Source of the DNA: Hymenobacter edaphi
GTDB taxonomy: Bacteria; Bacteroidota; Bacteroidia; Cytophagales; Hymenobacteraceae
Direction: 5' to 3'
NCBI RefSeq assembly: GCF_003258365.1
Contig: NZ_QHKM01000009.1
Location: forward strand, 62,001 to 126,000
DNA length: 64,000 nt
Every line of letters starts with the position of its first letter. Position 1 is the first letter of the stretch. A model generated the notes under the pieces. That model did no database searches. It was not told where the DNA came from and saw only the letters and a program-made list of their open reading frames with translations. The translations under genes were made by a program, and so were the position numbers. Positions 3,001 through 63,897 of this stretch are shown in pieces.

Positions 3001-5084
3001 ACGCTGCCGGTGTACGTCCAGGCAATGGTGGGCTGGTTGTCCTCAAAATCCTGGAAGACCAGCGGGGCGGGCAGCACCGTGAAGGCTACGGCGCTGCTGC
3101 TGCCGCCGCCGGGAGCCGGGTTGGTTACCGTCACGCTGTAGGAGCCGGCCGTAGCCACGGCCGCCGCCGGCACGGTGGCCGTCAGCGAGGTGGCCGAGAC
3201 AAACGTGGTGGCTAGGTCCGCGCCGTTGAAGGTCAGTGCCGAGCCGGCTACGAAGTTGGTCCCGGTGGCGGTCAGCGTGAAAGCGCCGCTGCCGGCCAGG
3301 CGGTTAGCGGGGCTCAGGCTGCTGAGCGTGGGCGCGGGGTTGTCGATCAGGAAGCTGCTGCCCGAGGTACCGGTGCCGCCGGGCGTGGTCACGGCCAGGG
3401 GGCCGGCCGTCACCCCGCTCGGCGCGGTGGCCGTGATGCTGGTGCTGCTGTTGACGGTAAAGCTGGCGGCGGCTACCCCGTTGAAGGTCACGGCCGTGGC
3501 GCCGGTAAAATCGGTGCCGCTGATGGCAACCACGGTACCGGCCGAGCCGCTGGGCGGGTTGAAGCTGGTTACCGTCGGGGCCGGAATGGGCGTGGCGGTG
3601 GTTACCGCGAGCAGCGTGGGGGTGGTCTGCAGGTTGGGCACGGCGTCCTCGGCCACCGCGTACACGTCGTAGGCGGTGCTGGCCGTCAGGCCGCCGATGG
3701 CCGCTGTGGCGGCCGTGTTGGCGGTGGCGTTGGTGATGGAGCCCGATTGGGCCGCGGCGCTGCCGCTGGCGTCCTGCCCGGCTTTCACCTGGGCACTCGT
3801 GGGGGCCGCGGCGCCGCTGGCCAGCACCACGTAGTAGGTTTTGCCGACTTCGTTAATCGTCGAAGAAAGCGTAAAGCCGGTGGTGGTAACGCCCGAAGCC
3901 GCAGGCGAACCGCTGCCAAACGTGGGCGGCGTGGTATCGGGCGAAAGGGTCGTCACTTCCAGCAGCGTCGCGGCGGTCTGCAGGTTGGGCACGGCGTCCT
4001 CGGCCACCACGTACACGTCGTAGGCGGTGCTGGCCGTCAGGCCGCTGATGGCCGCTGTGGCGGCCGTGTTGGCGGTGGCGTTGGTGATGGAGCCCGATTG
4101 GGCCGCGGCGCTGCCGCTGGCGTCCTGCCCGGCTTTCACCTGGGCACTCGTGGGGGCCGTGGCGCCGTCGGGGAGCACCACGTAGTAGGTTTTGCCGACT
4201 TCATCAATAGTAGAGGAAAGCGTGAAGCCGGTGGCCGTAGTGCCCGAAGCCGCGGGCGAACCAGTGGCGAAGGTAGGCGGGGTTGTGTCGGCAGGAGTTG
4301 TACCCGTAGTGAAGCTAACCGATACTTCATCAATAGCAAGGCCATGATCTGTACCATTGTGGTCTACATCTTTCCACCGTAGCATGATGTAGCGTCCAGC
4401 AGCTAGTGGGCTCGAAGTCAAATCAATAGTAGTAGCTGCTATTTGCACTCTATTTGCTGGCGCGTTGCCGTTTAAGGATGCAGCAGAACTGGTGTTAATA
4501 GGGCTGGTAAAATTGAGCGCTGCAACATCTGTCCAGCCGGCATCTGCTGTAGGGGCACCACTTGCAACGCCAATAGGAGTTAACGTGGTTATTTGTGACG
4601 CACTTGTTTGATAAGAAAAGGTTATGACGTTGGGTGTCGTGTTGCCACCATTGCGCCACTGCTCTCCTACATATGATATCGAAAGGGAGGTAATTGGGGC
4701 ACCAGTATTATTCTGGAAAAGAATGCCATGAGCAAAACTTCCAGCCGCAGCATTGCTTGAGCCAAGCGTTCCAAGTGCTCTGTCCGTTGCCGAAGCAGCT
4801 CCGTAGCTGTATAAATTGCCGCCATTTGCCCCGCCAGCATCAGCAACGATGGACGTGCCTGTACCAGTTCGCTGAGAGTATAGTCCAACAATGGTCCCGT
4901 TCTGGGTGAAGGTTGCACTACCTGAAACGGGTAGTGCATCGAAGTTTTGACCATAAGTTGGATTGCTACCCGTTAGAATAACCTGCCCCCACCCTACCAG
5001 CGGCGAGCAGAAAAACAACAGGGCGACAAGCCACCTCAAGCGTCGGCGTGGACCGGCGGAACTACGGGTAAGTTGTTGTGTCAT
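1..5084 (-). CDS. T9SS-secreted multidomain adhesin-like protein (C-terminus cut by window edge)
   Basis: An open frame of 1694 codons runs from an ATG at 5084 to the left edge without a stop; roughly the last 40 residues are missing. A signal peptide (about residues 1-34, ending PLVGWGQ) is followed by an N-terminal beta domain (35-262), two nearly identical 117-residue Fn3-like repeats (about 263-497), IPT/TIG-like domains, a region resembling a choice-of-anchor/MAM domain (about 670-860), another IPT domain, a long stretch of short beta repeats, and a closing module with LKWTTAQEKNSAYFEVQRS and YYRLRQVDRDG. The start of a type A sorting domain (FPNPATDLLRI) is visible near residue 1655. 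This architecture is known from T9SS cargo in Bacteroidota. Surface attachment or adhesion is inferred; the ligand cannot be read. The first 700 bp of the gene are clearly more AT-rich than the rest. Confidence 0.9.
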   Translation of the reverse strand, partial: MTQQLTRSSAGPRRRLRWLVALLFFCSPLVGWGQVILTGSNPTYGQNFDALPVSGSATFTQNGTIVGLYSQRTGTGTSIVADAGGANGGNLYSYGAASATDRALGTLGSSNAAAGSFAHGILFQNNTGAPITSLSISYVGEQWRNGGNTTPNVITFSYQTSASQITTLTPIGVASGAPTADAGWTDVAALNFTSPINTSSAASLNGNAPANRVQIAATTIDLTSSPLAAGRYIMLRWKDVDHNGTDHGLAIDEVSVSFTTGTTPADTTPPTFATGSPAASGTTATGFTLSSTIDEVGKTYYVVLPDGATAPTSAQVKAGQDASGSAAAQSGSITNATANTAATAAISGLTASTAYDVYVVAEDAVPNLQTAATLLEVTTLSPDTTPPTFGSGSPAASGVTTTGFTLSSTINEVGKTYYVVLASGAAAPTSAQVKAGQDASGSAAAQSGSITNATANTAATAAIGGLTASTAYDVYAVAEDAVPNLQTTPTLLAVTTATPIPAPTVTSFNPPSGSAGTVVAISGTDFTGATAVTFNGVAAASFTVNSSTSITATAPSGVTAGPLAVTTPGGTGTSGSSFLIDNPAPTLSSLSPANRLAGSGAFTLTATGTNFVAGSALTFNGADLATTFVSATSLTATVPAAAVATAGSYSVTVTNPAPGGGSSSAVAFTVLPAPLVFQDFEDNQPTIAWTYTGSVATVAGNSTGGSSPANSPFFTSSAKAWLATGASPTATFANQSLVGYSNAYVTFRLGAFSVGSTGNGMDASDNVTVEVSLDNGTTWRSTLLVGGNNNARWDYTATGVAETTYDGDNTPVPFVPSGGGVRNTDGYSTVKINLPASATQVRVRIVPTTNDGAERWSIDDVALYGSPAPAPTIVSFTPDQGLINTPVTITGTNFVSGGTGVLFNGTAATSVTFVSSTEVQALVPAGATTGPVSVAVGGQTATSTTNFTVLLPVYYAKASGALNDPATFGLNPDGSGASPTSLTDPGITLNLVNNLAPTLTASLTLGTGSKVVVGDGTAAVNLTIPAGFNLTGTLDLSANSTLTVLNTAPSFTFGAVAASSTVDYAQAGTYAVPASRTPSGGYGNLKLTSGTKTLPTGTTVIRGNFTVDNVTGYNGFAGSSSPTFTTLSLLGNFTLLGTVTYGTADNSYTLVLDGTTPQTLTGNGNAINLFRLTNNNTAGGVLAATGGSTNLNLGTVTSGGLTQNTGTSLALNGNTLALTGNGTFVGSGVLTAAAAATVDVTKPAGTSAPGTLYLGAGETLGTLTLNLADATDELFLGADLTVTNLNLTSGILVLNGRTLTSDGPIVSVAGQLRGSATSALAFTGTGSVGTLAFVNSTAARMLASLVLNRTANVTIELTNTLTVANVTLTRGVLQFTPSTRLVVTGTLTGGNANSYVNALTLPTAANATAATLTFPLGGSLGFYRPATLTVAQASNGPASGYTARLQELTGNSRGVTAPLTNVSAVRYVALSQEAGGATLTGGSVELAFGEDDGVNDAATLRLASSPNGSTAYTDLGTPTVTITATGPSFLSGTVAASITALGDFSLATNATAAGTNPLPVTLTGFTAQRQGEGALLKWTTAQEKNSAYFEVQRSTNGGQEFEAIGQVQAAGHSSTGRQYAFQDARRPVGPVYYRLRQVDRDGTATLSEVRVLSGSAVFTATVFPNPATDLLRIEAAAPVKGWRILSLAGQVLRT

Positions 5085-5125
5085 GCAATCAGGCTGAAGG
5101 AAGAGAGTTGGAGCGAACTAAGATA

Positions 5126-5133
5126 CAAAAGTA
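5126..5133 (-). promoter_or_regulatory. Putative -7 box of the first T9SS protein gene
   Basis: TACTTTTG on the minus strand matches the Bacteroidota -7 consensus TAnnTTTG and lies about 41 nt before the ATG. No good -33 TTTG is visible at the usual 19-21 nt spacing, so this is only a candidate. Confidence 0.35.
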
Positions 5134-5203
5134 CCATTTGCGCCCCCCTGCCTGTCGAGTTCGTTGTTAACGAATTGTTATGTAGCCGTTATCCGTAGGC
5201 CAC

Positions 5204-5237
5204 AAAAAAAGCCCCTGCCGGCTGGCAGGGGCTTTTT
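5204..5237 (-). terminator. Intrinsic terminator after the IPT/TIG protein gene
   Basis: The stem AGCCCCTGCC / GGCAGGGGCT is flanked by an A-run on one side and a T-run on the other, so it could terminate in both directions. It sits 22 nt past the stop of the minus-strand IPT/TIG gene. Confidence 0.8.
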
Positions 5238-5258
5238 CGTACGGAAGGCAGCGCGGGG

Positions 5259-8200
5259 CTAGCGCTTGGAAATGCGGCTGGTAGCCACGCCTTCGCGGGT
5301 CGAAATTTTCACCAGGTATTGTCCGGTCGGCAACTGGCGCAGGTCCAGGCTACCATCGGCGGCCAGACGGCCGCTCCACACGGGCCGGCCCAGCATGTCG
5401 AGCACCGTTACCTCGGCCGCGGGCACGGCACCGGCCAAGCGCACGTGCAGCTGGTCGGTCACCGGGTTGGGGTACACGCTCAGGCCCTGCAGCTTACCGG
5501 CATGGGCGGCCGTGGTGCTCGTCACCGTGAAGGTTACGGTGCTGGTGGCCGTGCCGCCCGGCGTGGTCACCGAGATAGTGCCCGACGTAGCGCCGGTCGG
5601 CACCGTGGCCGTGATGGACGTAGCCGATACCACCGTGAAGCTCGGCGCATTCACCCCGTTGAAGGCCACGGCCGTGGCGCCGGTCAGGTTGGTACCCGTA
5701 ATCGTCACCACCGTACCCACCGTACCGCTCGTCGGCGTAACCGCCGTGATGGTCGGGGCCGGGTTGGGCACCGTCACGGTGAAGCTGGCCGTCGAGGTGG
5801 CCGTGCCGCCCGGCGTGGTCACGGCAATGGTGCCGGAGGTGGCGCCCGTCGGCACCGTGGCCGTGATGGAAGTGGCCGAGTTGACGCTGAAGGTCGTGGC
5901 CGCCGTGCCGTTGAACGTTACCGCCGTGGCGCCGGTCAGGTTGGTGCCGGTGATGGTCACCACCGTGCCCACCGGGCCGCTCGTCGGCGTGAAGCTGGCC
6001 ACGGTCGGGGCCGGAATCGGGGCGGGCGTCACCGTGAAGGTGGCCGCCGCCGACGTGCCGCCGCCCGGGGCCGGGCTGGTCACGGTCACGTTGTAGGTGC
6101 CGGCCGTGGCAATGGCCGAGGCCGGCACGCTGGCCGTCAGCGAGGTGGCCGACCCGAACGTGGTGGTCAGCGCCGCCCCGTTGAAGGTGACGACCGAGCC
6201 CGATACGAAGCCCGTGCCCGTCACCGTGAGCGTGAAGCCCGCGCCGCCGGCCACGGCCGTGTTGGGCGCCAGCGCCGTGATGGTCGGCACCGGGTTGGGC
6301 ACCGTCACGGTGAAGCTGGCCGTCGAGGTGGCCGTGCCGCCCGGCGTGGTCACGGCAATGGGGCCGGAGGTGGCGCCAGCCGGCACCGTCGCCGTGATGG
6401 ACGTAGCCGACACCACCGTGAAACCGGTGGCTGCCGTGCCGTTGAAGGCCACGGTCGTGGCGCCGGTCAAATTGGTGCCGGTGATGGTCACCACGGTACC
6501 TACCGGGCCGCTCGTCGGCGTGAAGCTGGCAATGGCCGGGGCCGGCGTCGGCGCCGTCACGGTGAACGTCACGGCCGAAGAAGTGCCGCCGCCCGGGGCC
6601 GGGCTGGTCACGGTTACATTGTAAGTGCCGGCCGTGGCAATGGCTGAAGCCGGCACCGCCGCCGTCAGCGAGGTGGCCGACACAAACGTGGTGGTCAAAG
6701 CCGCGCCATTGAAATTGATGACCGAACCGGCCACGAAGCCCGTGCCAGTAGCAGTCAGCGTGAAGCCGGCGCTACCAGCTACGGCCGTGTTCGGCGCAAC
6801 GCTGGTCAGCGTCGGGGCCGGGTTGGGCACCGTCACGGTGAAGCTGGCCGTCGAAGTAGCCGTGCCGCCGGGCGTGGTCACGGCAACGGCGCCGGAGGTG
6901 GCGCCCGTCGGCACCGTGGCCGTGATGGAAGTGGCCGAGTTGACGCTGAAGGTCGTGGCCGCCGTGCCGTTAAACGTTACCGCCGTGGCGCCGGTCAGGT
7001 TGGTGCCGGTGATGGTCACCACCGTGCCCACCGGGCCGCTCGTCGGCGTGAAGCTGGCCACGGTCGGGGCCGGAATCGGGGCGGGCGTCACCGTGAAGGT
7101 GGCCGCCGCCGACGTGCCGCCGCCCGGGGCCGGGCTGGTCACGGTCACGTTGTAAGTGCCGGCCGTGGCAATGGCCGAGGCCGGCACGCTGGCCGTCAGC
7201 GAGGTGGCCGACCCGAACGTGGTGGTCAGCGCCGCCCCGTTGAAGGTGACGACCGAGCCCGATACGAAGCCCGTGCCCGTCACCGTGAGCGTGAAGCCCG
7301 CGCCGCCGGCCACGGCCGTGTTGGGCGCCAGCGCCGTGATGGTCGGCACCGGGTTGGGCACCGTCACGGTGAAGCTGGCCGTCGAGGTGGCCGTGCCGCC
7401 CGGCGTGGTCACGGCGATGGGGCCGGAGGTGGCGCCCGTCGGCACCGTGGCCGAAATCGTGGTGGCGTTGGTCACGCTGAAGGTCGTGGCCGCCGTGCCG
7501 TTGAAGCTCACCGCAGTAGCGCCGGTGAAATCCGAGCCGGTGATGGTCACCACGGTACCTACCGGACCGCTCGTCGGGGTGAAGCTGGCAATGGCCGGGG
7601 CCGGCGTCGGAGTCGTCACGGTAAAGGCCGCCGTCGAAGTAGCCGTACCGCCGGGCGTGGTCACGGCAATGGTGCCGGAGGTAGCGCCCGTCGGCACCGT
7701 GGCCGAAATAGAAGTAGCCGAGTTAACGGTGAAGCTGGTAGCCGCCGTGCCGTTGAAGGCCACGGCCGTGGCGCCGGTTAGGTTGGTACCCGTAATCGTC
7801 ACCACCGTGCCCACCGGGCCGCTCGTCGGCGTGAAGCTCGTAACGGCCGGGGCCGGGGTAGCGGAAGTTACAGTGAAGGGCAGCGCCGCGGAGGTACCAC
7901 CGCCGGGAGCCGGGTTGGTCACGGTCACGTTGTAGGTGCCGGCCGTGGCAATGGCCGAAGCCGGCACCGCCGCCGTCAGCTGGGCAGCCGAAACGAACGT
8001 GGTCGGCAGGGCCGTCCCGTTGAAATTCACCACCGAAGAGCCCAGGAAGTTGGAGCCGTTTACCGTCAGCGTGAAGTCCGCGCCGCCGGCCGCAGCCGTG
8101 TTGGGGGCCAGGCTGGTCAGCGTCGGGGCCGGGTTGGGAGCCGTCACCGTGAAGTTCAGGCTCGAGGTAGCCGTACCGCCGGGCGTGGTCACGGCAACGG

Positions 8201-9494
8201 CGCCGGAGGTGGCGCCCGTCGGCACCGTGGCCGAAATGGAAGTAGCCGAGTTAACGGTGAAGCTGGTAGCCGCCGTGCCGTTGAACGTTACCGAGGTAGC
8301 ACCAGTGAAATTCGAGCCGTTGATGGTTACCACCGTGCCCGCCGGGCCGCTCAGTGGCGAAAAGCTGGCAATGGTCGGGGCCTGGGTAGCGACGTTGATG
8401 GGCGCAAAAGCCACGCCCCGGAACACCGTATTCGCCGGCGCCGCTTTGATGGTTGCCAGCGACGAGCCGGCAGTGGGGGCCGCGTTGTAGCCCGTCGCGT
8501 CGGTAGCCGAGTACAGCCCGGTAGTGCCGGTGGCAAACAGCGTGGCCGAGTTGCCCGAAGCCTGCACGGTCAGGCCGCGCAGCCCCGCCGTCGAGGCAAT
8601 GACGCCGTTGTAGGTCCAGGTGCCACTTACCAGCGAGTATTTGTTGATGCCGCCGCCCGCGCCCGAGCGGTCATCGGCCACGTAGGCCACGTCGGGGCCG
8701 GGCACCGTGGCATCCAGGTCCACCAGCACAAAGCCGTAGGGCGAAGGGGTAGCCCCGTTGCCCGGGATGACCAGCGTAGTGGTCTGGCCCGCCGTGGTGG
8801 GCAGGCCAGTGCCCACGGTATTCACCCCGATATTCGAGCCCGAGCTGGAGGAAATGTAAAGCTGCCCGCCGTAGATGCCGACCGCGCGCACGTTAGTGGG
8901 TGCGGTGCTCAGCAGCGTGGAGGTGGTGGCCCCCAGCGTGGCGTAACGGGTGCCGCCGCTGCTGGTGGGCGAGCCGGTGCCGGCCAGCCAGAAGCGCGAG
9001 CCGTCGTCGGTGGCCGCGCCGCGCGGGCTGCTGGCCAAGTAGGCGTCGGTCAGCCCGGTGGAGGTGTCTACGTTGCCATTCACGTCGATGCGCGCCACGA
9101 CGCGCGCCGCGGCCGAGGCCGTAACCGAGGCCGTGGCCGGGGCCGCGTCGTAGCCTACCAGCGTCAGGTAGCGCCGGTCCGTCGAGAGGGTCAGCATGCC
9201 TTCCGAGGTGGCGCTGGCCGTGAGCGTAAACTGTTTCTGAGTGCCGCTGCCGGCCGTCGGCAGGGCAATGGACTGGACGAGGTTGCCGTTAGGCGTGTAC
9301 TCGTCCAGAAACACGGCGGCGGCCGTGCCGGAAGCCACGGCCGCCGTGCCGTCGCCCACGCGCACGACGACAAGGTTGCCGGAAGTAAAAGGAGCAGCCT
9401 GTAAGGAAAGTGTGCTGGCGGCCAGCAGGGCTGTCAGGCAGCTCAGGTGCCACCTGCTCGCCCTCGCGGTTGTAGATGTTGTTTTCACGGGCAT
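5259..9494 (-). CDS. T9SS-secreted protein with 11 IPT/TIG domains
   Basis: A 1411-residue secreted protein. A signal peptide (1-33) is followed by a propeller-like N-terminal region (about 34-368, with phrases such as DEYTPNGNLVQSIALP), then eleven IPT/TIG immunoglobulin-like domains of about 85 residues (about 369-1315) of two alternating types, one with TPTSGPVGTVVTITG and one with APNTAVAGGAGFTLTV, and a type A sorting domain (YPNPVTDQLHVRL ... TSRISKR). T9SS would export it and anchor or release it at the cell surface. Domains 9-10 are copies of domains 5-6 at DNA level with a 1059-bp period, so the array has been homogenised recently. The specific ligand is unknown. It is flanked by two other T9SS cargo genes on the same strand, each with its own terminator. 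Confidence 0.93.
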   Translation of the reverse strand: MPVKTTSTTARASRWHLSCLTALLAASTLSLQAAPFTSGNLVVVRVGDGTAAVASGTAAAVFLDEYTPNGNLVQSIALPTAGSGTQKQFTLTASATSEGMLTLSTDRRYLTLVGYDAAPATASVTASAAARVVARIDVNGNVDTSTGLTDAYLASSPRGAATDDGSRFWLAGTGSPTSSGGTRYATLGATTSTLLSTAPTNVRAVGIYGGQLYISSSSGSNIGVNTVGTGLPTTAGQTTTLVIPGNGATPSPYGFVLVDLDATVPGPDVAYVADDRSGAGGGINKYSLVSGTWTYNGVIASTAGLRGLTVQASGNSATLFATGTTGLYSATDATGYNAAPTAGSSLATIKAAPANTVFRGVAFAPINVATQAPTIASFSPLSGPAGTVVTINGSNFTGATSVTFNGTAATSFTVNSATSISATVPTGATSGAVAVTTPGGTATSSLNFTVTAPNPAPTLTSLAPNTAAAGGADFTLTVNGSNFLGSSVVNFNGTALPTTFVSAAQLTAAVPASAIATAGTYNVTVTNPAPGGGTSAALPFTVTSATPAPAVTSFTPTSGPVGTVVTITGTNLTGATAVAFNGTAATSFTVNSATSISATVPTGATSGTIAVTTPGGTATSTAAFTVTTPTPAPAIASFTPTSGPVGTVVTITGSDFTGATAVSFNGTAATTFSVTNATTISATVPTGATSGPIAVTTPGGTATSTASFTVTVPNPVPTITALAPNTAVAGGAGFTLTVTGTGFVSGSVVTFNGAALTTTFGSATSLTASVPASAIATAGTYNVTVTSPAPGGGTSAAATFTVTPAPIPAPTVASFTPTSGPVGTVVTITGTNLTGATAVTFNGTAATTFSVNSATSITATVPTGATSGAVAVTTPGGTATSTASFTVTVPNPAPTLTSVAPNTAVAGSAGFTLTATGTGFVAGSVINFNGAALTTTFVSATSLTAAVPASAIATAGTYNVTVTSPAPGGGTSSAVTFTVTAPTPAPAIASFTPTSGPVGTVVTITGTNLTGATTVAFNGTAATGFTVVSATSITATVPAGATSGPIAVTTPGGTATSTASFTVTVPNPVPTITALAPNTAVAGGAGFTLTVTGTGFVSGSVVTFNGAALTTTFGSATSLTASVPASAIATAGTYNVTVTSPAPGGGTSAAATFTVTPAPIPAPTVASFTPTSGPVGTVVTITGTNLTGATAVTFNGTAATTFSVNSATSITATVPTGATSGTIAVTTPGGTATSTASFTVTVPNPAPTITAVTPTSGTVGTVVTITGTNLTGATAVAFNGVNAPSFTVVSATSITATVPTGATSGTISVTTPGGTATSTVTFTVTSTTAAHAGKLQGLSVYPNPVTDQLHVRLAGAVPAAEVTVLDMLGRPVWSGRLAADGSLDLRQLPTGQYLVKISTREGVATSRISKR
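5760..7446 (-). repeat. Intragenic direct repeat, 1059-bp period
   Basis: Positions about 5760-6387 and 6819-7446 are nearly identical DNA offset by 1059 bp (353 codons). They encode the same two IPT/TIG domains with more than 150 consecutive identical residues and only scattered silent changes, for example GTTGAACG against GTTAAACG. Confidence 0.85.
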
Positions 9495-16135: not shown

Positions 16136-17335
16136 TTAGGGATGATCCTGGCGCACGGTGGCGGTGTTGCCGTTGCCGTACTGCTCAATCACGCTGTTCT
16201 GGCCGCTGGCACCCTGCCATACTCTGGCGCTGTTGTCATTGCCCACCTGCGTCTGCATGGCGCGGTGGTCGTTGCCGTCCTGGTCCACATAAGCCGTGTT
16301 CCGGTCGCCGTTGGTGTACTGGGTAGCGCGGTTGTCGCTGCCTTCCTGGTCGATCTGCTGGCGGTTGTCGTCGTTGATGATGGTCTGCGAGGCGCGGTTG
16401 CGGTTGCCGGTCTGCTCCACCAGGGCCACGTTGTCGTCCGAGCCGCCGATGCCGATGGTCTGGGTCGAGCGGTTGTCGCTGCCGGCCTGCAGGGCGCGGG
16501 ATACGTTCCGGTCACCAATCTGGTCCTGCTCGGCGCGGTTGCGGTTGCCGACCTGCTGGATGCGGGCCAGGTTCAGGCTGTTGCCTTCCGACACCCGGCG
16601 CTGGCTTTGCCGGGCGTAGTTGTCGTTGCCGCCTTCCTGAATCACGATGGCCTCGTCGCCCACGGCGCTCAGCTGTTCCTGAATGGACGTGCTGCGGGCG
16701 CCGAGCTGCCGGGCCGATGCGCGGTTCAGCGAACCGGTCTGGTACTGCGAGGCGGTGTTGTCCCCGTCGAGGGGCGTGCCGTCGCCCTGCACGATGGTGG
16801 CCTGGTTCAGGTTGCCAAGCTGGGTTTGGGTGGCGCGGTTCCGGTCGCCCGTCTGCCGAGCCGAGGCTTCGTTGCCGCCGATCAGCCCCTGGGTCTGCGA
16901 GAGGCGGTTGTCGTCGCCGTTCTGCGTGCCGACGGCTTTGTTGGCCAGGCCGGTCTGGCTCTGCTCGGAGCGGTTGCCGTCGCCCGTCGACGTGATGCGG
17001 GCGTCGTGGTAGAGGCCGGTTTGGGTCTGGGTCGAGCGGTTGTCGTCGCCGGTCTGGGTGCTGCGGGCTTCGTTGTAGCGACCGGTCTGGGTTTGAGTGG
17101 CCCGGTTGTCGTCGCCGGTCTGGCGGCTCTGGCTCAGGTTGTAGCGCCCGTCCTGGGTCTGGGTGAGGCGGTTGTCGTCGCCGGCCTGGGTGCCGTGGGC
17201 CTCGTTCATCAGGCCGGACTGCGTCACGTTGGCGTCGTTGGTGCCACCCGATTGCAGCAGCGTGCTGGTATTATTCTGGGCATGGGCGTAGCCCGCAGCT
17301 AGCAGTGCAGCTAGCACGAAAGTAATGCGTTTCAT
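16136..17335 (-). CDS. csgA: CsgA-like major curlin with extended repeat array
   Basis: 399 residues: a signal peptide (MKRITFVLAALLAAGYAHA) followed almost entirely by curlin repeats of 11 (or 22) residues with the core N-x-A/S-x-Q-x-Q-x-G, for example TQTGDDNRATQTQTGRYNEA and QVGNRNRAEQDQIGDRNVS. About thirty half-repeats can be counted. Such units stack as strand-loop-strand rungs of an extracellular amyloid fibre. E. coli CsgA is about 150 residues with five 22-residue repeats, so this one is far longer. Asp and Arg are unusually frequent in the loops (GDDNR). The start at 17335 is set by the signal peptide; a longer frame upstream reads through the promoter. The best promoter candidate of the locus lies 57 nt upstream. 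Confidence 0.88.
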   Translation of the reverse strand: MKRITFVLAALLAAGYAHAQNNTSTLLQSGGTNDANVTQSGLMNEAHGTQAGDDNRLTQTQDGRYNLSQSRQTGDDNRATQTQTGRYNEARSTQTGDDNRSTQTQTGLYHDARITSTGDGNRSEQSQTGLANKAVGTQNGDDNRLSQTQGLIGGNEASARQTGDRNRATQTQLGNLNQATIVQGDGTPLDGDNTASQYQTGSLNRASARQLGARSTSIQEQLSAVGDEAIVIQEGGNDNYARQSQRRVSEGNSLNLARIQQVGNRNRAEQDQIGDRNVSRALQAGSDNRSTQTIGIGGSDDNVALVEQTGNRNRASQTIINDDNRQQIDQEGSDNRATQYTNGDRNTAYVDQDGNDHRAMQTQVGNDNSARVWQGASGQNSVIEQYGNGNTATVRQDHP

Positions 17336-21805: not shown

Positions 21806-22045
21806 ATGCTTCGAAGCGTCATTCTGGAGGAAATCGACCAGGCGCTGGCTCACTACGATTCTTCCAACGGCCGCCCCGTCGCCATTGAGCTGGGCGAGCG
21901 GAAATACACCCAGCTGATCCTGGACGTGGCCGCCCTGCACGCCGACGGCGGCGACCTGACCACCAACACCGGCCGCCCCCTGGCCTACCGCGGCCTGGAA
22001 ATCCTGCGCGACGACGTGCACCGCGACCGGGTACGCATCCTGTGA
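21806..22045 (+). CDS. Small protein of unknown function
   Basis: 79 residues from the ATG at 21806 (MLRSVILEEIDQALAHYDSS). It is soluble, mixed alpha/beta and acidic, with no signal peptide or known motif; VAIELGERKYTQLILDVAAL and YRGLEILRDDV look like genuine secondary structure, and third codon positions are strongly GC-biased as in neighbouring genes. An upstream in-frame codon at 21755 would add 17 residues of low-quality sequence. The TGA stop is formed by the first bases of the palindromic element that follows. I do not recognise the family. Confidence 0.65.
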   Translation: MLRSVILEEIDQALAHYDSSNGRPVAIELGERKYTQLILDVAALHADGGDLTTNTGRPLAYRGLEILRDDVHRDRVRIL

Positions 22046-22387
22046 CCACGGATTCGACGGATTTTTCGGATTGCCCGGATTTTGGGCACGATTGTGTACA
22101 GCAGCTCACCGGCAGTCATTGCGAGCGAAGCAACTGCAGAGGAAGGCGTCGCCAATCCTTCCTCATCGTAGCACCGCCGTTACGATACTTGCAGACTTAA
22201 AACCCGCCCCCTGAAACTACCGTTGCCGGTTTCGGGCGGTGCTTGTACCGTTGTACCGCGAGCGGAAGGGTTGGCTACGCCTTCCTGCGGTTGCTTCGGC
22301 TACGCCTCGCAACGATGACCGGTGAATCGTCGTCTGCCATCGTCCCCGAAATCCGGGCAATCCGAAAAATCCGTCGAATCCGTGGTC
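22044..22387. repeat. Nested palindromic intergenic element, copy 1
   Basis: 344 bp bounded by perfect 39-bp inverted ends (22044-22082 and 22349-22387) that begin GACCACGGATTCGACGGATT. Inside is a second inverted pair (22115-22162 and 22264-22319) beginning GTCATTGCGAG or its close variant, and in the centre a hairpin at about 22204-22240 (CCGCCC...GGGCGG). No open frame of note. The left end overlaps the TGA stop of the preceding gene; the right end touches the -7 box of the next gene. Confidence 0.9.
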
Positions 22388-22395
22388 TACCTTTG
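22388..22395 (+). promoter_or_regulatory. -7 box directly before the ABC-F start codon
   Basis: TACCTTTG matches TAnnTTTG and is followed by only five nt before the ATG, so the predicted start site coincides with the start codon. The box begins at the base after the palindromic element ends. No -33 TTTG is visible inside the element end. Confidence 0.5.
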
Positions 22396-22400
22396 CGGGT

Positions 22401-24311
22401 ATGAATCTGCTTTCTGGCGAAAATCTCTCTAAAAATTACGCGGACCGCTGGCTGTTCCGCGACCTGGGCTTTGGCCTGCAGCAGGGGCAGCGCGTGGCGC
22501 TGGTCGGCATCAACGGAGCCGGCAAAACCACCCTGCTGCGCATTCTGGCCGGCCTGGAGCAGCCCGATACCGGGCTGGTGTCGGTGCGCAAGGGTATTCG
22601 GGTGGCCTTTCTGGGCCAGCAGCCGCAGTTCGACGAGGACCTGACGGTGGAGCAAACCATCTTCGCCTCGCAAAACGACACGCTGGCCGCCATCCGCGAC
22701 TACGAGCACGTGGTGAACGACCCCAACCACCGCTCCGACGATTTGCAGCGGGTGATGGAGCAGATGGACGCGCTCAACGCCTGGGACTACGAGGCGCAGG
22801 TCAAGCAGATTCTGGGCCGTTTGGGCATCCTGGGGCCGCTGCTGGACCGGCCGGTGCGGCAGCTCTCGGGCGGGCAGCGCAAGCGCGTGGCCCTGGCCCG
22901 GGTGCTCATCGAGGAGCCGGAGGTGCTGATTCTGGACGAACCCACCAACCACCTGGACCTGGACACCATCGAGTGGCTGGAAAACCGGCTGGCCTCCCCC
23001 ACCCTCACGCTGCTGATGGTGACCCACGACCGGTACTTTCTGGACAAGGTGGCCAACGAAATCGTGGAGCTGGACCAGGGGCGCGTGCACCGCTACCAGG
23101 GCAACTACTCCTACTTCGTGGAGAAAAAGGCCGAGCGGGAGCAGATGGAAGTGGCCGAGGTGGAAAAAGCCCGCAACCTGCTGCGCAAGGAGCTGGAGTG
23201 GATGCGCCGCCAGCCCCAGGCCCGCGGCACCAAGCAGAAGGCCCGCATCGATGCTTTCTACGAGACGCAGGAAAAGGCCAAGACCAAGATTGGCGGCCCG
23301 CAGCTGGAGCTGTCGGTGAAGACCACCCGCCAGGGCGGCAAAATCATCGAGGTGGAACACCTGCACAAGCAGTTCGGCGACAAAGTAGTGCTCGACGACT
23401 TCAGCTACGTGTTCAAGAAAAAGGACCGCATCGGCCTGATCGGGCCGAACGGGGCGGGCAAGTCGACGCTGCTGAACATGCTCACCGGCAAGCTGCAGCC
23501 CGACTCCGGCACCGTGGACGCGGGGCAGACCACCGTATTCGGCTACTACACCCAGAACGAGCTGGAGTTTGACGAGACGCAACGGGTCATCGACATCGTG
23601 AAGGAGGTGGCCGAGGTGGTGGAAATGGCGAATGGCGACGTGGTGACGGCGTCACAGTTTCTGCAGCACTTCCAGTTTCCGCCGGCCCAGCAGTACACGC
23701 TGGTGAGCAAGCTGAGCGGGGGCGAAAAGCGCCGCCTGCAGCTGCTGCGGGTGCTGATCAAGAATCCAAACTTTTTGATTCTGGACGAGCCGACCAACGA
23801 CCTGGACATTATCACCCTGAACATTCTGGAGGACTTCCTGCTGAATTTCGCGGGCTGCCTGCTCATCGTGTCGCACGACCGGTACTTCATGGATGCGCTG
23901 GTGGAGCATGTGTTCGTGCTGGAGCCGGGCGGGCAGGTCCGGCAGTTCCCGGGTAACTACACCGACTACCGCGAGTGGCAGAAGGAGCACCAGAGCGAGG
24001 AATACGCCCGCGAACAGGCCCGCACGGCCAAGGCGGCGGCGGGCGTGGCCCCGTCGGCCGAGGTAAAGGCGGCGCCGGCCCCGGCCGGGCAGAAGCGCAA
24101 GGCCAGCTTCGCCGAGAAAAAGGAGTATGAGCAGCTCAGCAAGGATATCGAGCAGCTGGAAACCCGCAAACAGCAGCTTATCACGCAGCTGAACTCGGGC
24201 AACGGCACGCACACCGAGCTGGCCGACTGGGCCGCCGAGCTGAAGCGCACCGACGCCGACCTGGATGCGAAGGGGGAACGGTGGCTGGAGCTGGCCGATC
24301 TGGTCGACTAA
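22401..24311 (+). CDS. ABC-F family ATPase (Uup-like)
   Basis: 636 residues with two ABC domains and no membrane segments. Walker A motifs are GINGAGKTT (about 36) and GPNGAGKST (about 350); signatures LSGGQRKRVALARVL and LSGGEKRRLQLLRVL; Walker B with LILDEPTNHLDLDT and LILDEPTNDLD. The inter-domain linker is charged, and a C-terminal Lys/Glu-rich coiled coil (about 575-636, YEQLSKDIEQLETRKQQL) is typical of the Uup branch. Such proteins act on ribosomes or translation-related states rather than transport. The ATG at 22401 gives the conserved N-terminus MNLLSGENLSKNYADRWLF. Confidence 0.93.
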   Translation: MNLLSGENLSKNYADRWLFRDLGFGLQQGQRVALVGINGAGKTTLLRILAGLEQPDTGLVSVRKGIRVAFLGQQPQFDEDLTVEQTIFASQNDTLAAIRDYEHVVNDPNHRSDDLQRVMEQMDALNAWDYEAQVKQILGRLGILGPLLDRPVRQLSGGQRKRVALARVLIEEPEVLILDEPTNHLDLDTIEWLENRLASPTLTLLMVTHDRYFLDKVANEIVELDQGRVHRYQGNYSYFVEKKAEREQMEVAEVEKARNLLRKELEWMRRQPQARGTKQKARIDAFYETQEKAKTKIGGPQLELSVKTTRQGGKIIEVEHLHKQFGDKVVLDDFSYVFKKKDRIGLIGPNGAGKSTLLNMLTGKLQPDSGTVDAGQTTVFGYYTQNELEFDETQRVIDIVKEVAEVVEMANGDVVTASQFLQHFQFPPAQQYTLVSKLSGGEKRRLQLLRVLIKNPNFLILDEPTNDLDIITLNILEDFLLNFAGCLLIVSHDRYFMDALVEHVFVLEPGGQVRQFPGNYTDYREWQKEHQSEEYAREQARTAKAAAGVAPSAEVKAAPAPAGQKRKASFAEKKEYEQLSKDIEQLETRKQQLITQLNSGNGTHTELADWAAELKRTDADLDAKGERWLELADLVD

Positions 24312-40200: not shown

Positions 40201-40202
40201 TC

Positions 40203-40260
40203 TGCCCTGCATAACAAAAAAGGCCCAAGGTAATTTGGGCCTTTTTTGTTATGCAGGGCA
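40203..40260. terminator. 26-bp perfect inverted repeat acting as terminator
   Basis: Arms 40203-40228 and 40235-40260 are perfectly complementary over 26 bp with a 6-nt loop. The inner part AAAAAAGGCCCAA/TTGGGCCTTTTTT is a normal bidirectional terminator; the outer TGCCCTGCATAAC/GTTATGCAGGGCA doubles the stem length. It begins 3 nt after the phosphosugar mutase stop. Confidence 0.9.
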
Positions 40261-40289
40261 GCAATTTGATATTTAGGTATTATTCTTTA

Positions 40290-43263: not shown

Positions 43264-43271
43264 CAAAAATA
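43264..43271 (-). promoter_or_regulatory. -7 box four nt before a GTG start
   Basis: TATTTTTG on the minus strand is followed by CACC and then the GTG start. The box abuts the end of palindromic element copy 2. The predicted transcript would begin at or next to the start codon. Confidence 0.5.
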
Positions 43272-43593
43272 GACCACGGATTCGACGGATTTTTCGGATT
43301 ACACGGATTTCGTGGATGGTGCGGCCGTCATTGCGAGCGAAGCGCAGCAACCGCAGGAAGACGTAGCCACTCCTTCATCTAGCAGCACCGCCGAGCCAAT
43401 GCCCACCAACCGAAAACGGCACCGCCCAAAACTGGAGTTACCGGTTTCGGGCGGTGCTATTGTGTTAGTCGGCGCGTTGGCCAGGACCGATTACGTTGCT
43501 TCGCTCGCAATGACGACGGGGCGGACCGGCTCAATCGTCCCCGAAATCCGCCTAATCCGTCGAAACGAAGTTCGGCGAAGCCAATTCGTGGTC
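43272..43593. repeat. Nested palindromic intergenic element, copy 2
   Basis: 322 bp. The left end GACCACGGATTCGACGGATT is the same as in copy 1; the right end is a degenerate inverse with an 18-bp insertion between AATCCGTCGAA and AATTCGTGGTC. Inside are GTCATTGCGAGCGAAGC (43327 on) with its complement at 43498-43514, and a core hairpin GCACCGCCC/GGGCGGTGC (43419-43427, 43449-43457). Its right end supplies the TGA stop of the minus-strand ABC1 kinase gene. Confidence 0.88.
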
Positions 43594-45277
43594 AGCTTTT
43601 TTCCTTCCGAATCGTGAGGATAAAGAGCACCAGCAGCCAGAAGCCGGTGGCGCCCAGGCCCGCCCACGTCACGCCGGGCAGGCCATGGTAGTAGGGCATC
43701 TGGCCGGCGGGGTAGTTGCCGAGCAGGCTCAGCCCCGAAAACAGCAGAAAGGCCACCGCCAGCACGGCAATGATGCTGCGCGACACCAGCCGCTCGGCCG
43801 TGCGCAGCAGGGGCAGGTAGCCGCTCAGCTGGGCCTGCACGCGCAGGTCGCCCTTGCTCAGCTTGCGCACAATCTGGCGCAGATCCGTCGGCAGGGTGTA
43901 CATCAAGGCCAGCAGCTGCTGCCCGGTGTACTGCAGCTCGGTCGTCACGTTCGACACTGAATACTGCTCCAAAATCAGCCGGCGGCCGTAGGGACGCACA
44001 AACTCGAAGGTGTTGAACGAGGGGTGCAGCACCTTGCCGATGCCTTCCAGAATCACCAGGGCCCGCAAGATCAGGAACACCGAGCCCGGCACCTGCAGCT
44101 TGAAGCGGTAGATGACCGTCTGCAGGCGCTCGGCCAGGGCACTCATGCTCATTTCCTTCACGTCGAGGCCGGTGAAGTCGTCGATGAGCAGCTGCAGCTC
44201 GGCCTCAAAGGCGCGCATGTCGCGGATGTCGGCCGTAATGGCCAGGCGACGGAAGTTCAGAGCCATGCCGCGCGCATCCTGCTGGCTCATGCTGATGAAC
44301 ACGCCCGCAAATGCGTATTTCTGCTGCTTGGTCAGCCGCCCCACCATCCCGAAGTCGATGAGCACGATGGTGCCGTCGGGGCGCACCAGCACGTTGCCGG
44401 GGTGCGGGTCGGCGTGGAAGATACCGAACTCGAAAATCTGGGTCAGGTAAATGTCCATGCCCGTTTCGGCCACCGTGGCCGGGCTCAGGCTCCAGCGCAG
44501 CAGCTGCTCCTTGTCGGTAATCTTGCAGCCGCTGATAAACTCGATAACCAGCACCCGGCTGGTGCTCAGCTCGCGGTAGGGCCGCGGCACGTAGAAGGTC
44601 TGGTACTCGGCATAGAGCTTGCGAAACTGCTCCATGGCCCGGCCCTCGGAGGTGTAGTCCAGCTCCTGCATCATGCTGCGCTCGAAGGCCTCCACGATGT
44701 CCTGCGGGTTGCTCAGCCCCTGTTTGCGCAGGTAGCCGCCGGTCAGCTTCACCAGCTCGCGCAGCAGGGCCAGGTCGGTGGTGATTTTGTCGCGGGCGTC
44801 GGGGCGCTGCACCTTCACCACCACGTCGGTGCCGTCGAGCAGCTGGGCTTTGTGCACCTGCCCGATGGAGGCCGAGCCCAGCGGCACGTCCTCGAACGCG
44901 CTGAACACCTCCCCCAGGGGCCGCCCCAGCTCTTTTTCGATGATGCGCTTGGCCTCGTCGGTGGCGAAGGGCGGCACCGCGCTCTGCAGCTTGGCAAACT
45001 CGTCCACCAGCTCCTGCGGCAGCAGGTCGGCGCGGTTGCTGAGCACCTGCGCCAGCTTCACAAACGTGGGCCCCAGCTCCTCGATGACCATGCGCACCCG
45101 CTCCCAGCGCGAGGTTTCGAACACCGTCTGCTCGCCGTGCTGCCAGGTGCGGCGGCGCTGGCGCGGCACCAGCCGCCGCAGCGCGGTGCTGGTTACCACG
45201 TCCTCAAAGCCGTAGCGCAGCAGCACCTCCGCCACTTGGCGGATGCGCCCCAGGTTGGTCATCGTGTTCTTGAACAT
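43592..45277 (-). CDS. ABC1/AarF (UbiB-family) atypical kinase
   Basis: 561 residues. The family-defining segment ELGPTFVKLAQVLSNRADLL (the KxGQ region, here KLAQ), the Ala/Gly loop GSASIGQVHKAQLLDG, a VVKVQRP lysine, the catalytic region FHADPHPGNVLVRPDG and the metal site LIDFGMVGRL are present. Two hydrophobic helices at the C-terminus (about 505-525 and 538-556) anchor it in the inner membrane. UbiB-type proteins support quinone biosynthesis, here presumably menaquinone, since menC is also in this window; this link is inference. The stop codon TGA belongs to the end of a palindromic element. Confidence 0.92.
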   Translation of the reverse strand: MFKNTMTNLGRIRQVAEVLLRYGFEDVVTSTALRRLVPRQRRRTWQHGEQTVFETSRWERVRMVIEELGPTFVKLAQVLSNRADLLPQELVDEFAKLQSAVPPFATDEAKRIIEKELGRPLGEVFSAFEDVPLGSASIGQVHKAQLLDGTDVVVKVQRPDARDKITTDLALLRELVKLTGGYLRKQGLSNPQDIVEAFERSMMQELDYTSEGRAMEQFRKLYAEYQTFYVPRPYRELSTSRVLVIEFISGCKITDKEQLLRWSLSPATVAETGMDIYLTQIFEFGIFHADPHPGNVLVRPDGTIVLIDFGMVGRLTKQQKYAFAGVFISMSQQDARGMALNFRRLAITADIRDMRAFEAELQLLIDDFTGLDVKEMSMSALAERLQTVIYRFKLQVPGSVFLILRALVILEGIGKVLHPSFNTFEFVRPYGRRLILEQYSVSNVTTELQYTGQQLLALMYTLPTDLRQIVRKLSKGDLRVQAQLSGYLPLLRTAERLVSRSIIAVLAVAFLLFSGLSLLGNYPAGQMPYYHGLPGVTWAGLGATGFWLLVLFILTIRKEKS

Positions 45278-45338: not shown

Positions 45339-45420
45339 GATGACGCGGAAGAAACGCAGAGGAAGCAATGCTCAGCGCCTTCTGCGTCAGCCTCTGCGTC
45401 CTCGGCGGGCTACCATCGGC
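45339..45420. repeat. Dispersed CGCAGAGG-type inverted repeat
   Basis: AACGCAGAGG (about 45352-45361) faces CCTCTGCGT (about 45400-45408) around CTCAGCGCCTTCTGCGT. A related sequence, TTTGCGCAGAAGGCGCTGAG, occurs at about 63821-63840, so this is probably a genome-wide intergenic repeat. Confidence 0.5.
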
Positions 45421-61850: not shown

Positions 61851-62900
61851 ATGAACCAATTCTGGCAGCAGTTCCTGGCCCCACTCTTCGATGGGCTCCG
61901 CTACAGCACGCTGGCGGGCTACACCTGGGCCCATCCGCGGCTGCTGTTGCTGCTGCCGGCCGTGGTGCTGCTGTTTTTGCTGCGCGAGGGCCTGGCCCAG
62001 CGCCGCCGCGCCAAGCTGGGCGTGGCCTTCGTGCGGGGGCAGGCCCGCGCCCACTGGAGCGCCCTGCTGCGCTTCGTGCCCGATGTGGTGCTGGCCCTGA
62101 GCCTGATGCTGGGCGTACTGGCCCTGGCCCGCCCCCAGCGCACCGACGAGCGGGTGGAGCAGTCGGGCCGCGGCATCGACATCGTGCTGGCCGTCGACGT
62201 GTCGGCCTCCATGGAACTGCAGGACCTGCAGCCCAACCGCCTCGAAGCCGCCAAGCGCGTGGCTCAGGCCTTCGTGCAGGGCCGCCGCGGCGACCGGATC
62301 GGCCTCGTCGCCTTTGCCGGCGACGCGTACTCCGTGCTGCCCCTCACCACCGACTACGAGCTGCTGCTGGAGGAGCTGAAGAACCTGCGCCTGGGCCTGA
62401 TTCCGACCGACGGCACGGCCATCGGCACGGCGCTGGGCGTGGCCACCAACCGCCTGCGCACCGCTCCGGGCCGCTCCCGCGTGTGCATTCTGCTCTCCGA
62501 CGGCGAAAACACCGCCGGCGCCCTCGACCCGCTTACCGCCGCCCAGCTGGCCCACAGCTTCGGCCTGAAGCTCTACACCATCGGCCTGGGCCGCGACGGG
62601 CGCGTGCCCTACGGCCAGGACGAGCTGGGCCGCCCGCGCTACGTGGAAACCCGCCTCGACGAGACGACCATGCGCCAGATTGCCAGCGCCGGCGAAGGCC
62701 AGTTTTTCCGCGCCACCGACAACTCCGCCCTGCGCAGCATCTTTGCCCGCATCAACCGCCTGGAGCAGTCCGAAATCAAGCTGACGCGCTACCGCAACAC
62801 CCACGACTACTACCGCTACTACCTCTACTGGTGTGTCGGCCTCTGGCTGCTCTGGCTGGCGCTGAAAAACACCTTCCTGACGAATGCGCTGGAGGACTGA
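61851..62900 (+). CDS. BatA-like von Willebrand factor A membrane protein
   Basis: 349 residues. A membrane helix near 29-46 (PRLLLLLPAVVLLFLL), another at about 70-90 (LLRFVPDVVLALSLMLGVLA), a VWA domain (about 105-290) with a complete MIDAS: DIVLAVDVSASMELQDL, the threonine loop LIPTDGTAIGTALGVATNRL and ILLSDGENTAGALDPLTAAQ, and a final helix (YYLYWCVGLWLLWLALKNTF). These match BatA of the aerotolerance-type operon. The ATG at 61851 is preferred over 61827, since a -7-like box lies between them. Its TGA stop is the first part of a palindromic element. Confidence 0.92.
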   Translation: MNQFWQQFLAPLFDGLRYSTLAGYTWAHPRLLLLLPAVVLLFLLREGLAQRRRAKLGVAFVRGQARAHWSALLRFVPDVVLALSLMLGVLALARPQRTDERVEQSGRGIDIVLAVDVSASMELQDLQPNRLEAAKRVAQAFVQGRRGDRIGLVAFAGDAYSVLPLTTDYELLLEELKNLRLGLIPTDGTAIGTALGVATNRLRTAPGRSRVCILLSDGENTAGALDPLTAAQLAHSFGLKLYTIGLGRDGRVPYGQDELGRPRYVETRLDETTMRQIASAGEGQFFRATDNSALRSIFARINRLEQSEIKLTRYRNTHDYYRYYLYWCVGLWLLWLALKNTFLTNALED

Positions 62901-63123
62901 CCACGGATTCTCGCAGATTATGGGCGGATTGTACGGCTTTCGGGGACGATTTAAAAAGTAGTGGCGCCCTGATTTCAGGGGCTGCCCCCCGCTACTTTTA
63001 AGCCGCTTTTGCCCCGGCGCCGTAGTTTTGCCGACGCGCTGCCCGGACAAACCGAGCCGCCGGCACTTTCCTCCATCGTTCCCGAAATCCGTGCAATCCG
63101 AACAATCCGTCGAATCCGTGGTC
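62899..63123. repeat. Palindromic intergenic element, copy 3 (short form)
   Basis: 225 bp. The left end GACCACGGATTCTCGCAGAT and the right end ATCCGTCGAATCCGTGGTC are diverged relatives of the ends of copies 1 and 2. The core differs: AAAAGTAG/CTACTTTT (62954-62961, 62992-62999) enclose an inner hairpin CGCCCTGA/TCAGGGGC, a bidirectional terminator-like structure. A -7-like box TAGTTTTG (about 63022-63029) lies inside the element. The left end overlaps the TGA of the batA-like gene. Confidence 0.82.
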
Positions 63124-63789: not shown

Positions 63790-63897
63790 CGTCCACTCGA
63801 TGGCTTGAGCCCGCAGCAGCCGCTGAGATTTGCGCAGAAGGCGCTGAGCCAGGGATTGGCCAATTCACCATTTCACAATCTCACCATTTCACCGCAC
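63790..63897. other. Short repeat-rich spacer before the DUF423 gene
   Basis: Contains TTTGCGCAGAAGGCGCTGAG, related to the repeat near 45380, and a near-tandem CACCATTTCACAATCTCACCATTTCACC (positions about 63867-63893). No promoter box was identified with confidence. Confidence 0.4.

Follow-up and report, generated by a model that had tools for sequence, protein, structure and literature searches.

Palindromic elements linked to a GxxExxY-family gene replace intergenic DNA up to stop codons, start codons and -7 boxes in Hymenobacter edaphi

We report on three related palindromic elements in a 64,000-nucleotide stretch of the Hymenobacter edaphi genome (the window; NCBI RefSeq assembly GCF_003258365.1, contig NZ_QHKM01000009.1, positions 62,001 to 126,000), each of which reaches from the stop codon of one gene to the -7 box or coding start of another. 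Comparison of the window's genome (G000, 6.04 Mbp) with relatives (G001-G007, here called sisters) shows that the element replaces the native intergenic DNA and is not inserted beside the stop, that the position of the stop is native and not brought by the element, and that -7 boxes and starts have been overwritten. The inverted arms of the element are linked to the GxxExxY gene; this linkage and the replacement of native DNA are among our strongest claims. As an explanation we propose, with a probability of roughly 0.5, that a GxxExxY-linked palindromic element rewrites an intergenic site repeatedly until a functional boundary is met.

The three elements and their borders

The features in the window are as follows (no strand is assigned to the elements themselves; the Bacteroidetes -7 consensus, TAnnTTTG, was used throughout to call -7 boxes).

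22044..22387: element 1, palindromic, with a nested middle repeat and a core
22044-22093 and 22338-22387: outer arms of element 1, about 50 bp
22043..22045, plus strand: TGA stop of a 79-aa gene, made of T and the GA of the element 1 tip; TAA at the same codon in sister G001, without the element
22388..22395, plus strand: -7-like box TACCTTTG of an ABC-F-like gene (ATG at 22401), directly 3' of element 1; the same box stands behind native DNA in G001
43272..43593: element 2, palindromic, with a GTCATTGCGAG middle pair at 43327-43337 and 43504-43514
43592..43594, minus strand: TGA stop of an ABC1 kinase gene (sister comparison, Pfam)
43264..43271, minus strand: -7-like box TATTTTTG, adjoining 43272, of the gene read away from element 2
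62899..63123: element 3, with palindromic ends
62898..62900, plus strand: TGA stop of a VWA (batA-like) gene; TAG at the same codon in sisters G001 and G002, without the element
63118..63120, plus strand: GTG, inferred start of a yggS-like gene, inside the right arm of element 3

An initial annotation of the window had described the three elements as related palindromes whose edge supplies the TGA of the upstream gene; all three lie where it placed them, and in each the edge completes that TGA. With at most one mismatch, AATCCGTGGTC has six matches in the window, all of them the six outer ends (shuffled sequences: mean 0.59, maximum 3). For element 2 the description needs correcting: the gene is on the minus strand, its stop lies at the right end of the element, and this end has one mismatch (AATTCGTGG). 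The opposite ends meet a -7 box (TACCTTTG and TATTTTTG) or a coding start, as had also been noted, GTGGTC at 63118-63123 being in frame with the yggS-like gene. The inverted-repeat arms of element 1 extend over 82 nt and are 82% complementary. Pfam matches identify the neighbouring genes as ABC1 kinase, VWA (batA-like), Ala_racemase_N (yggS-like) and ABC transporter with ABC_tran_Xtn (ABC-F-like); the 79-aa gene upstream of element 1 has no Pfam match. Searched at the gathering threshold, Rfam returned a tRNA alone from the window and no known RNA family for the elements. A simple terminator scan was negative for elements 1 and 3 and gave two weak candidates in element 2 (0.4-0.6 in shuffles).

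The nested architecture noted for elements 1 and 2 is also present. The palindromic GTCATTGCGAG repeat in the middle of element 1 (22115-22125) and of element 2 is a separate family; in G003 (idx10; idx numbers denote gene ends placed in sisters), G004 and G005 it is found with no outer arms around it.

Arm anatomy and positions of the ends in the genome

Throughout G000 the gapped arm pattern CCACGGATTN{0,30}GGATT gave 73 raw matches and its reversed control none; collapsed by hand these correspond to about 36 arm loci, which were fetched as L061-L091. The arm is about 50 bp long and runs in the order (G)ACCACGGATT, CGACGGATT, TTTCGGATT, NCACGGATTT and then CGTGGACGATT, with a period of about 9; each arm thus consists of three to four imperfect units of 8-9 nt, here (G)ACCACGGATT-CGACGGATT-TTTCGGATT-NCACGGATT. 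The plan of the element is two facing arms around a core of very variable sequence.

For scoring of positions, 49 outer ends were picked by hand from 82 rows by their recognisable tip, leaving out internal repeats, L062:1521 and L067:2801, and the flanks were scored with a codon-usage model trained on long open reading frames (ORFs) of the same loci and the window. A functional boundary was found at 47 of the 49 ends (two corrected by eye). Thirty have a stop 0-3 nt before CCACGG (29 by the model and the TAG at L067 by eye), eight carry the GTG of CCGTGGTC in the frame of the outward-reading gene, eight have a TAnnTTTG box 1-2 nt outside (including L070:10956, reassigned by eye), and one has an ATG 3 nt outside; the two with neither are L068, which is degenerate, and L072:3060. 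Pfam confirms TatD, McrBC-type proteins and yggS (as Ala_racemase_N) at GTG ends, and others are presumably deoC, GH3 and LUD genes. We infer that the GTG inside the arm is the true start of these genes, some of the frames staying open further into the arm.

For comparison, 8.3% of random positions have stop letters in any frame 0-3 nt upstream, as do 7 of the 114 other CCACGG sequences in the window. Chance was rejected as the cause of the end positions on the basis of 30/49 ends at a stop and 17/49 at a start or -7 box against stop letters at 7/114, the shuffles and the empty reversed control, and the earlier statement that random insertion is unlikely is borne out. The accompanying suggestion that the element targets translation ends stands in part: adjacency to stops is far from random, but starts and -7 boxes are met as exactly.

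Two other genomes have been scored in the same way. In G003, the nearest relative among those compared, 29 ends were scored; many of its loci are common with G000 and hence not independent. The stop lies at 0-3 nt in 18 of 19 stop-side ends, the nineteenth having a duplicated tip, and eight of the other ten meet a start or a -7 box, one of the remaining two being a stop by eye. In H. siberiensis (17 ends seen, scored with the G000 codon model) seven of ten stop-side ends take GTC TGA, in one frame, from the tip itself.

The stop is native and the intergenic DNA is lost

Twenty gene ends were placed in at least ten relatives and 92 regions were fetched from five of these. At 17 stop-side loci 59 alleles were scored as element-free, and 55 of them end at the same codon as G000; of the others three are one codon shorter (idx3) and one has a diverged C-terminus with a different end. 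By eye, three or more of the 59 resemble eroded arms (idx5 in G002; idx13 in G001 and G006), and alleles from the same locus do not count as independent. In the window, too, sisters without the outer element have the same end codon at the first (G001), second (G002, G004 and G005) and third locus (G001 and G002), an outcome that the initial annotation had named as one that would refute its reading. The stop triplet itself has often been rewritten to fit the tip (element edge marked by a hyphen): TAA or TAG has become T-GA at idx1, 12 and 15, and TAA has become TA-G at idx9.

These comparisons decide most directly on the proposal made in the initial annotation that the element brings its own stop and terminator, here taken together with selection that keeps such copies only. 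It is true that the tips complete TGA or TAG, and the H. siberiensis tip gives both last codon and stop at 7/10 ends. However, protein length is unchanged in 55/59 sister comparisons and the tip merely completes the triplet. As to a terminator carried as fixed cargo, the locus's own hairpin is kept at three loci (L080:8233, L084 and L086; by eye), and the scans of elements 1 and 3 were negative. We consider this explanation largely refuted and its probability very small.

What follows the gene end differs between alleles. In element-free alleles the same gene end is followed at once by other DNA, in which by eye a terminator-like hairpin is mostly present. At the first locus the order in G001 is ...GTGATTTAA, 53 bp of native DNA, TACCTTTG and ATG; in G000 it is ...ATCCTGTGA, the element, TACCTTTG and ATG. 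At the second locus the left outer arm stands alone in G001 and G006 and no arm is present in G002 and G007; the kinase has its stop (TAA or TAG) at the G000 position in G001, G002, G004, G005 and G006, and a codon sooner in G007. A promoter box and ATGTCCATTGCTTCTACC are retained at the third locus in G001; both are gone in G000 and G003, where the yggS reading frame runs back into the arm. In G001 the gene possesses a TACCTTTG of its own, and an ATG lies five codons before the point corresponding to the GTG at 63118. At idx0 a native terminator hairpin common to five sister genomes is absent in G000. Native intergenic DNA is gone on both sides at the first locus and at idx0, yggS and deoC, and the locus's own terminator hairpin is gone at others than the three loci named above. 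Seven of the 20 loci (idx0, 1, 3, 4, 6, 9 and 10) are without the element in G003 and are probably recent in G000, where the native remnant is at most 1 nt.

The lost flanks bear on a transposon-like insertion of a non-autonomous element that prefers TA or T, which in a GC-rich genome would be clustered at stops and -7 boxes. Many joints do read TA-GACC or T-GACC and -7 boxes begin with TA, but such insertion would keep the native flanks that are missing here, and of the eight start-side GTG joints two follow T and none follows TA; we therefore regard it as very improbable. Two insertions followed by recombination between the copies were also considered and rejected: this predicts native DNA beyond the ends, and only 2/49 seem to fit (the degenerate L068, and L072:3060).

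Encroachment on starts and -7 boxes, and apparent repeated rewriting

Alleles of one locus differ in how far the arm reaches. For the LUD gene, an arm stands directly before the -7 box in G003 and G002, whose ATG is intact; G006 seems to have an eroded arm at that place and G001 has none. In G000 box and ATG are lost, and GTGGTCGAG stands for ATGGCCGAA (GTG GTC GAG TCG versus ATG GCC GAA ACG). At deoC the arm stands before the -7 box in G006, G003 and G001 are native, and in G000 the -7 box, the ATG and the next five codons are overwritten. Old arms are possible landing sites at LUD and deoC. At idx0 this was rejected, since the five sisters there are without an arm.

Among six elements common to G000 and G003 the coding flanks are 92-98% identical, the arms 66-98% and the cores 54-80%; the core identity at idx8 is 0.60 compared with 0.57 when shuffled. 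The joint letters also differ between genomes at idx13 and idx14. Core divergence beside conserved flanks suggests repeated rewriting at fixed places.

The most serious competitor is a targeted replacement in one step, in which a machinery would recognise where a translated or transcribed unit ends (stop, start or -7 box) and exchange all the DNA from one such point to the next for the element. A native leftover of at most 1 nt at the seven loci without the element in the closest sister and the stop position kept in 55/59 agree with it, as do GTG in place of ATG, in register, at LUD, TatD and L078, tips that carry both stop and start letters, and GTC TGA in one frame at 7/10 stop-side ends of H. 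siberiensis. Stop, start and -7 box are, however, without apparent common sequence or chemistry for a nuclease to read, the joints at deoC, yggS and L075 lie several codons inside the gene, and at the same locus the advance of the arm from a place before the -7 box up to the start codon looks step-wise. On balance we find this explanation less likely than repeated rewriting.

The GxxExxY gene is a predicted nuclease inside inverted arms

G000 has a single GxxExxY gene, which sits between the perfect arms of one element (C28:399755-400574), and AATCCGTCGAATCCGTGGTC is identical at both ends of this element and at short copies; terminal inverted repeats are hence common to short copies and a full-length copy that carries an enzyme gene, as is expected of a transposon and its miniature inverted-repeat transposable elements (MITEs). 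The protein scores 139.3 bits for TIGR04256 (cut-off 35) and 135.1 for PF13366 (PDDEXK_3; cut-off 22), and in 25 sequences, own copy included, G28, E31, Y34, D70, E80, K82, Q94 and Y98 are invariant and intact in it. The D, E-x-K and Q-x3-Y residues are, we take it, the named motifs of Cas4/RecB-family nucleases. An AlphaFold model (mean pLDDT 92.7) is nearest to Cas4 SSO0001 (Foldseek E 4.9e-4), with other RecB-type nucleases among the next. A PDB sequence search with the GxxExxY alignment gave no matches at E up to 1. GxxExxY is accordingly modelled as a minimal PD-(D/E)XK, Cas4/RecB-like nuclease with predicted activity.

Within the genus the gene was found in four of eight genomes, as six intact copies and one broken copy. 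Inverted arms are present at all six intact copies, clear in five and weak in one; the five besides the G000 copy have arm alignment scores of 73, 79, 89, 57 and a weak 30. At L404 and L406 both arms adjoin the stops of the flanking genes by eye (TAG-ACCACGG and TAA-CCACGG; TAA-ATCACGG twice). L405 (G005) and L408 (G004) occupy seemingly the same genomic place with different arm families.

Left and right arms match within each of the L405 and L408 copies and differ between the genomes, as if co-evolving. Another arm-like repeat, of the CGCAGAG/CGCTGAG type as in the L405/L408 arms, is present in the window at 45356-45411 and 63808-63849; at 63808 it lies about 20 nt past the yggS stop and does not adjoin it. 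The GxxExxY element of G000 stands between an OmpA-like gene and LUD (L074, 3057-3873), and the orthologues of this place (L118, L138, L157 and L176) have other, mutually different, coding-looking DNA, which marks a variable spot.

Inverted arms flank GxxExxY genes in other phyla

In a phylum sample GxxExxY was found in 152 of 296 genomes, with up to 12 matches per genome; three of 14 control genomes had some match, none above the cut-off. A scan of named genomes gave at least 543 relatives, of which 80 loci were kept; among the matches listed, the best for the G000 protein is in Hymenobacter siberiensis. Together with the own copy and the 30 top loci of the phylum sample, 111 loci were tried and 100 scored (ten were without a recognisable ORF and one was too short). 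Inverted flanks above the 99th percentile of 2000 mismatched pairs were found at 38/100 GxxExxY loci and at 0/59 neighbour ORFs (median scores 36 versus 18). For the G000 copy itself the score is only 27, as its outer arm lies beyond the 300-base flank. Among the 38 are records titled Deltaproteobacteria, Geobacteraceae, Scalindua, Planctomycetales, Omnitrophota, Verrucomicrobia, Chloroflexi, Rivularia, Thermochlorobacteriaceae and Fibrimonadaceae; most of these cross-phylum records are metagenome bins, whose titles may be wrong for a contig. The arm units vary by taxon (CACAGAG, CGCAGAG, CGCCAAG, CACGAAA and TCTGAAC-type with GATT units) and the plan is the same. At the GxxExxY loci of other taxa 61 ends have an inward ORF of at least 120 codons, and in 34 of these the stop lies at -17 to +5 of the arm (range examined -60 to +150; 120 ends from 60 loci with an arm score of at least 33, some below the 99th percentile), the start of the arm being located only roughly.

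A Verrucomicrobium genome (G330, loci L344-L373) has 84 matches of GACAGGATTAACAGGAT-like arms and none for the control. By eye, its conserved tip seems to reach outward by another 15-30 nt, in some cases with TGA at its beginning.

The association with GxxExxY also speaks to the alternative that the arms are host cis-elements selected at gene ends, with functions, for example, in translation termination or at mRNA 3' ends, and GxxExxY a passenger. At idx13 several species do have a single arm, in some of them eroded, next to the same stop, and repetitive extragenic palindromes (REPs) near stops lower translation according to the excerpted text of PMC12306157, which cites earlier work. The same arms nevertheless precede promoters and overwrite start codons, their presence is patchy between sisters, and they flank GxxExxY across phyla, which makes this alternative improbable.

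Proposed model

In the model that we favour, repeated rewriting up to a functional boundary, the full form of the element has a GxxExxY gene between two inverted arms, and the copies described here are nearly all without the gene. The element would spread, or be renewed, by replacement, native DNA between two genes being lost and element written instead. The palindrome may be repeatedly cleaved and repaired from another copy, so that the site is rewritten again and again; GxxExxY would presumably act as the nuclease in this process. Each event may strip a little more of the native flank, and the ratchet would halt only at letters that the cell cannot lose, that is, an in-frame stop, a start codon or a -7 box. 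More tentatively, GxxExxY elements may constitute an undescribed class of mobile DNA in many bacterial phyla that multiplies by replacement and not by insertion, a Cas4-like nuclease and palindromic arms rewriting the DNA between genes, and that senses, or is halted by, a stop, a start or a -7 box at single-base accuracy, thereby turning whole intergenic regions, promoters and starts into element.

Several observations weigh against repeated rewriting. A slow ratchet predicts intermediates, and the seven probably recent loci are without partial native leftovers. Some loci have one recognisable arm without a partner. The presence of GxxExxY does not track arm copy number: G003 has 49 arm-pattern matches compared with 48 in G000, yet no GxxExxY, and G006 has two GxxExxY genes and a single pattern match, equal to the one of its control, its tip being different (AATCACGG). 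In the Verrucomicrobium genome 4/30 loci lie within 1 nt of a stop, with L369 mis-sited and a tip that seems longer. The scoring took in ends with a recognisable tip, and eroded ends are thus not seen; movement is deduced from presence and absence between species, and cleavage is presumed.

For GxxExxY, a common family, the linkage to inverted arms suggests a plausible function. If the model is correct, replacement rewrites terminators, promoters, leaders and even the starts of conserved genes while the proteins stay nearly the same, which would set this way of altering regulation apart from ordinary insertion. Annotation of gene starts could also be misled: yggS, deoC and tatD seem to begin at a GTG inside the repeat.

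Relation to known systems

No description of the element or of a role for GxxExxY was found in the open-licence literature, most subscription papers being outside its scope; in the excerpted passage that mentions it, GxxExxY is merely a domain label. The elements resemble REP/REPIN-RAYT systems as short intergenic palindromes in many copies with a nuclease-type gene thought to move them. REP/REPINs are described as palindromes of 20-40 bp with a GTAG or CGTC tag (PMC3733652), and in E. coli 446 of 4,072 predicted REPs are located within 15 nt of a stop (PMC12306157). The present elements are 225-344 bp with arms of about 50 bp and the tip (G)ACCACGG, and their arms are tandem units of 8-9 nt around variable cores in place of 20-40-bp hairpins. 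Moreover, unlike REP/REPIN, they replace native DNA and meet gene starts as exactly as stops, and the linked gene is PD-(D/E)XK and not a tyrosine (HUH) transposase as in RAYT.

Small palindromic intergenic repeats are also known as ERIC/RU-1, Correia and MITE-like repeats. RU-1 can remove the normal stop of a gene by fusing to its 3' end (excerpt of PMC2759123); there the protein is lengthened, whereas here it nearly always keeps its length and native DNA is missing. MITE or transposon insertion keeps the native flanks on both sides, usually with a short target duplication; here the flanks are lost at the first locus, idx0, yggS and deoC (duplications were not searched separately). The TAACTGA heptamers of Beggiatoaceae are short direct repeats at gene borders, some of which overlap upstream stops (PMC4679880); they differ in being tandem, mostly just upstream of starts and in one orientation, and the excerpted text names no inverted pair or nuclease gene. 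Finally, GxxExxY shares with Cas4/RecB-family nucleases the D, E-x-K and Q-x3-Y residues and a model nearest to Cas4 SSO0001, and is unlike Cas4 in being about 130 aa long and flanked by its own inverted arms.

Other repeats in the window

A perfect 27-bp inverted repeat with a 6-base loop at 40202-40261 is probably a two-way terminator. Long arrays of imperfect repeats in coding-like DNA extend over 3076-8418 and 16253-17206, with units of about 250/530 nt and 66 nt, respectively, the 66-nt units resembling what we take to be curlin repeats.
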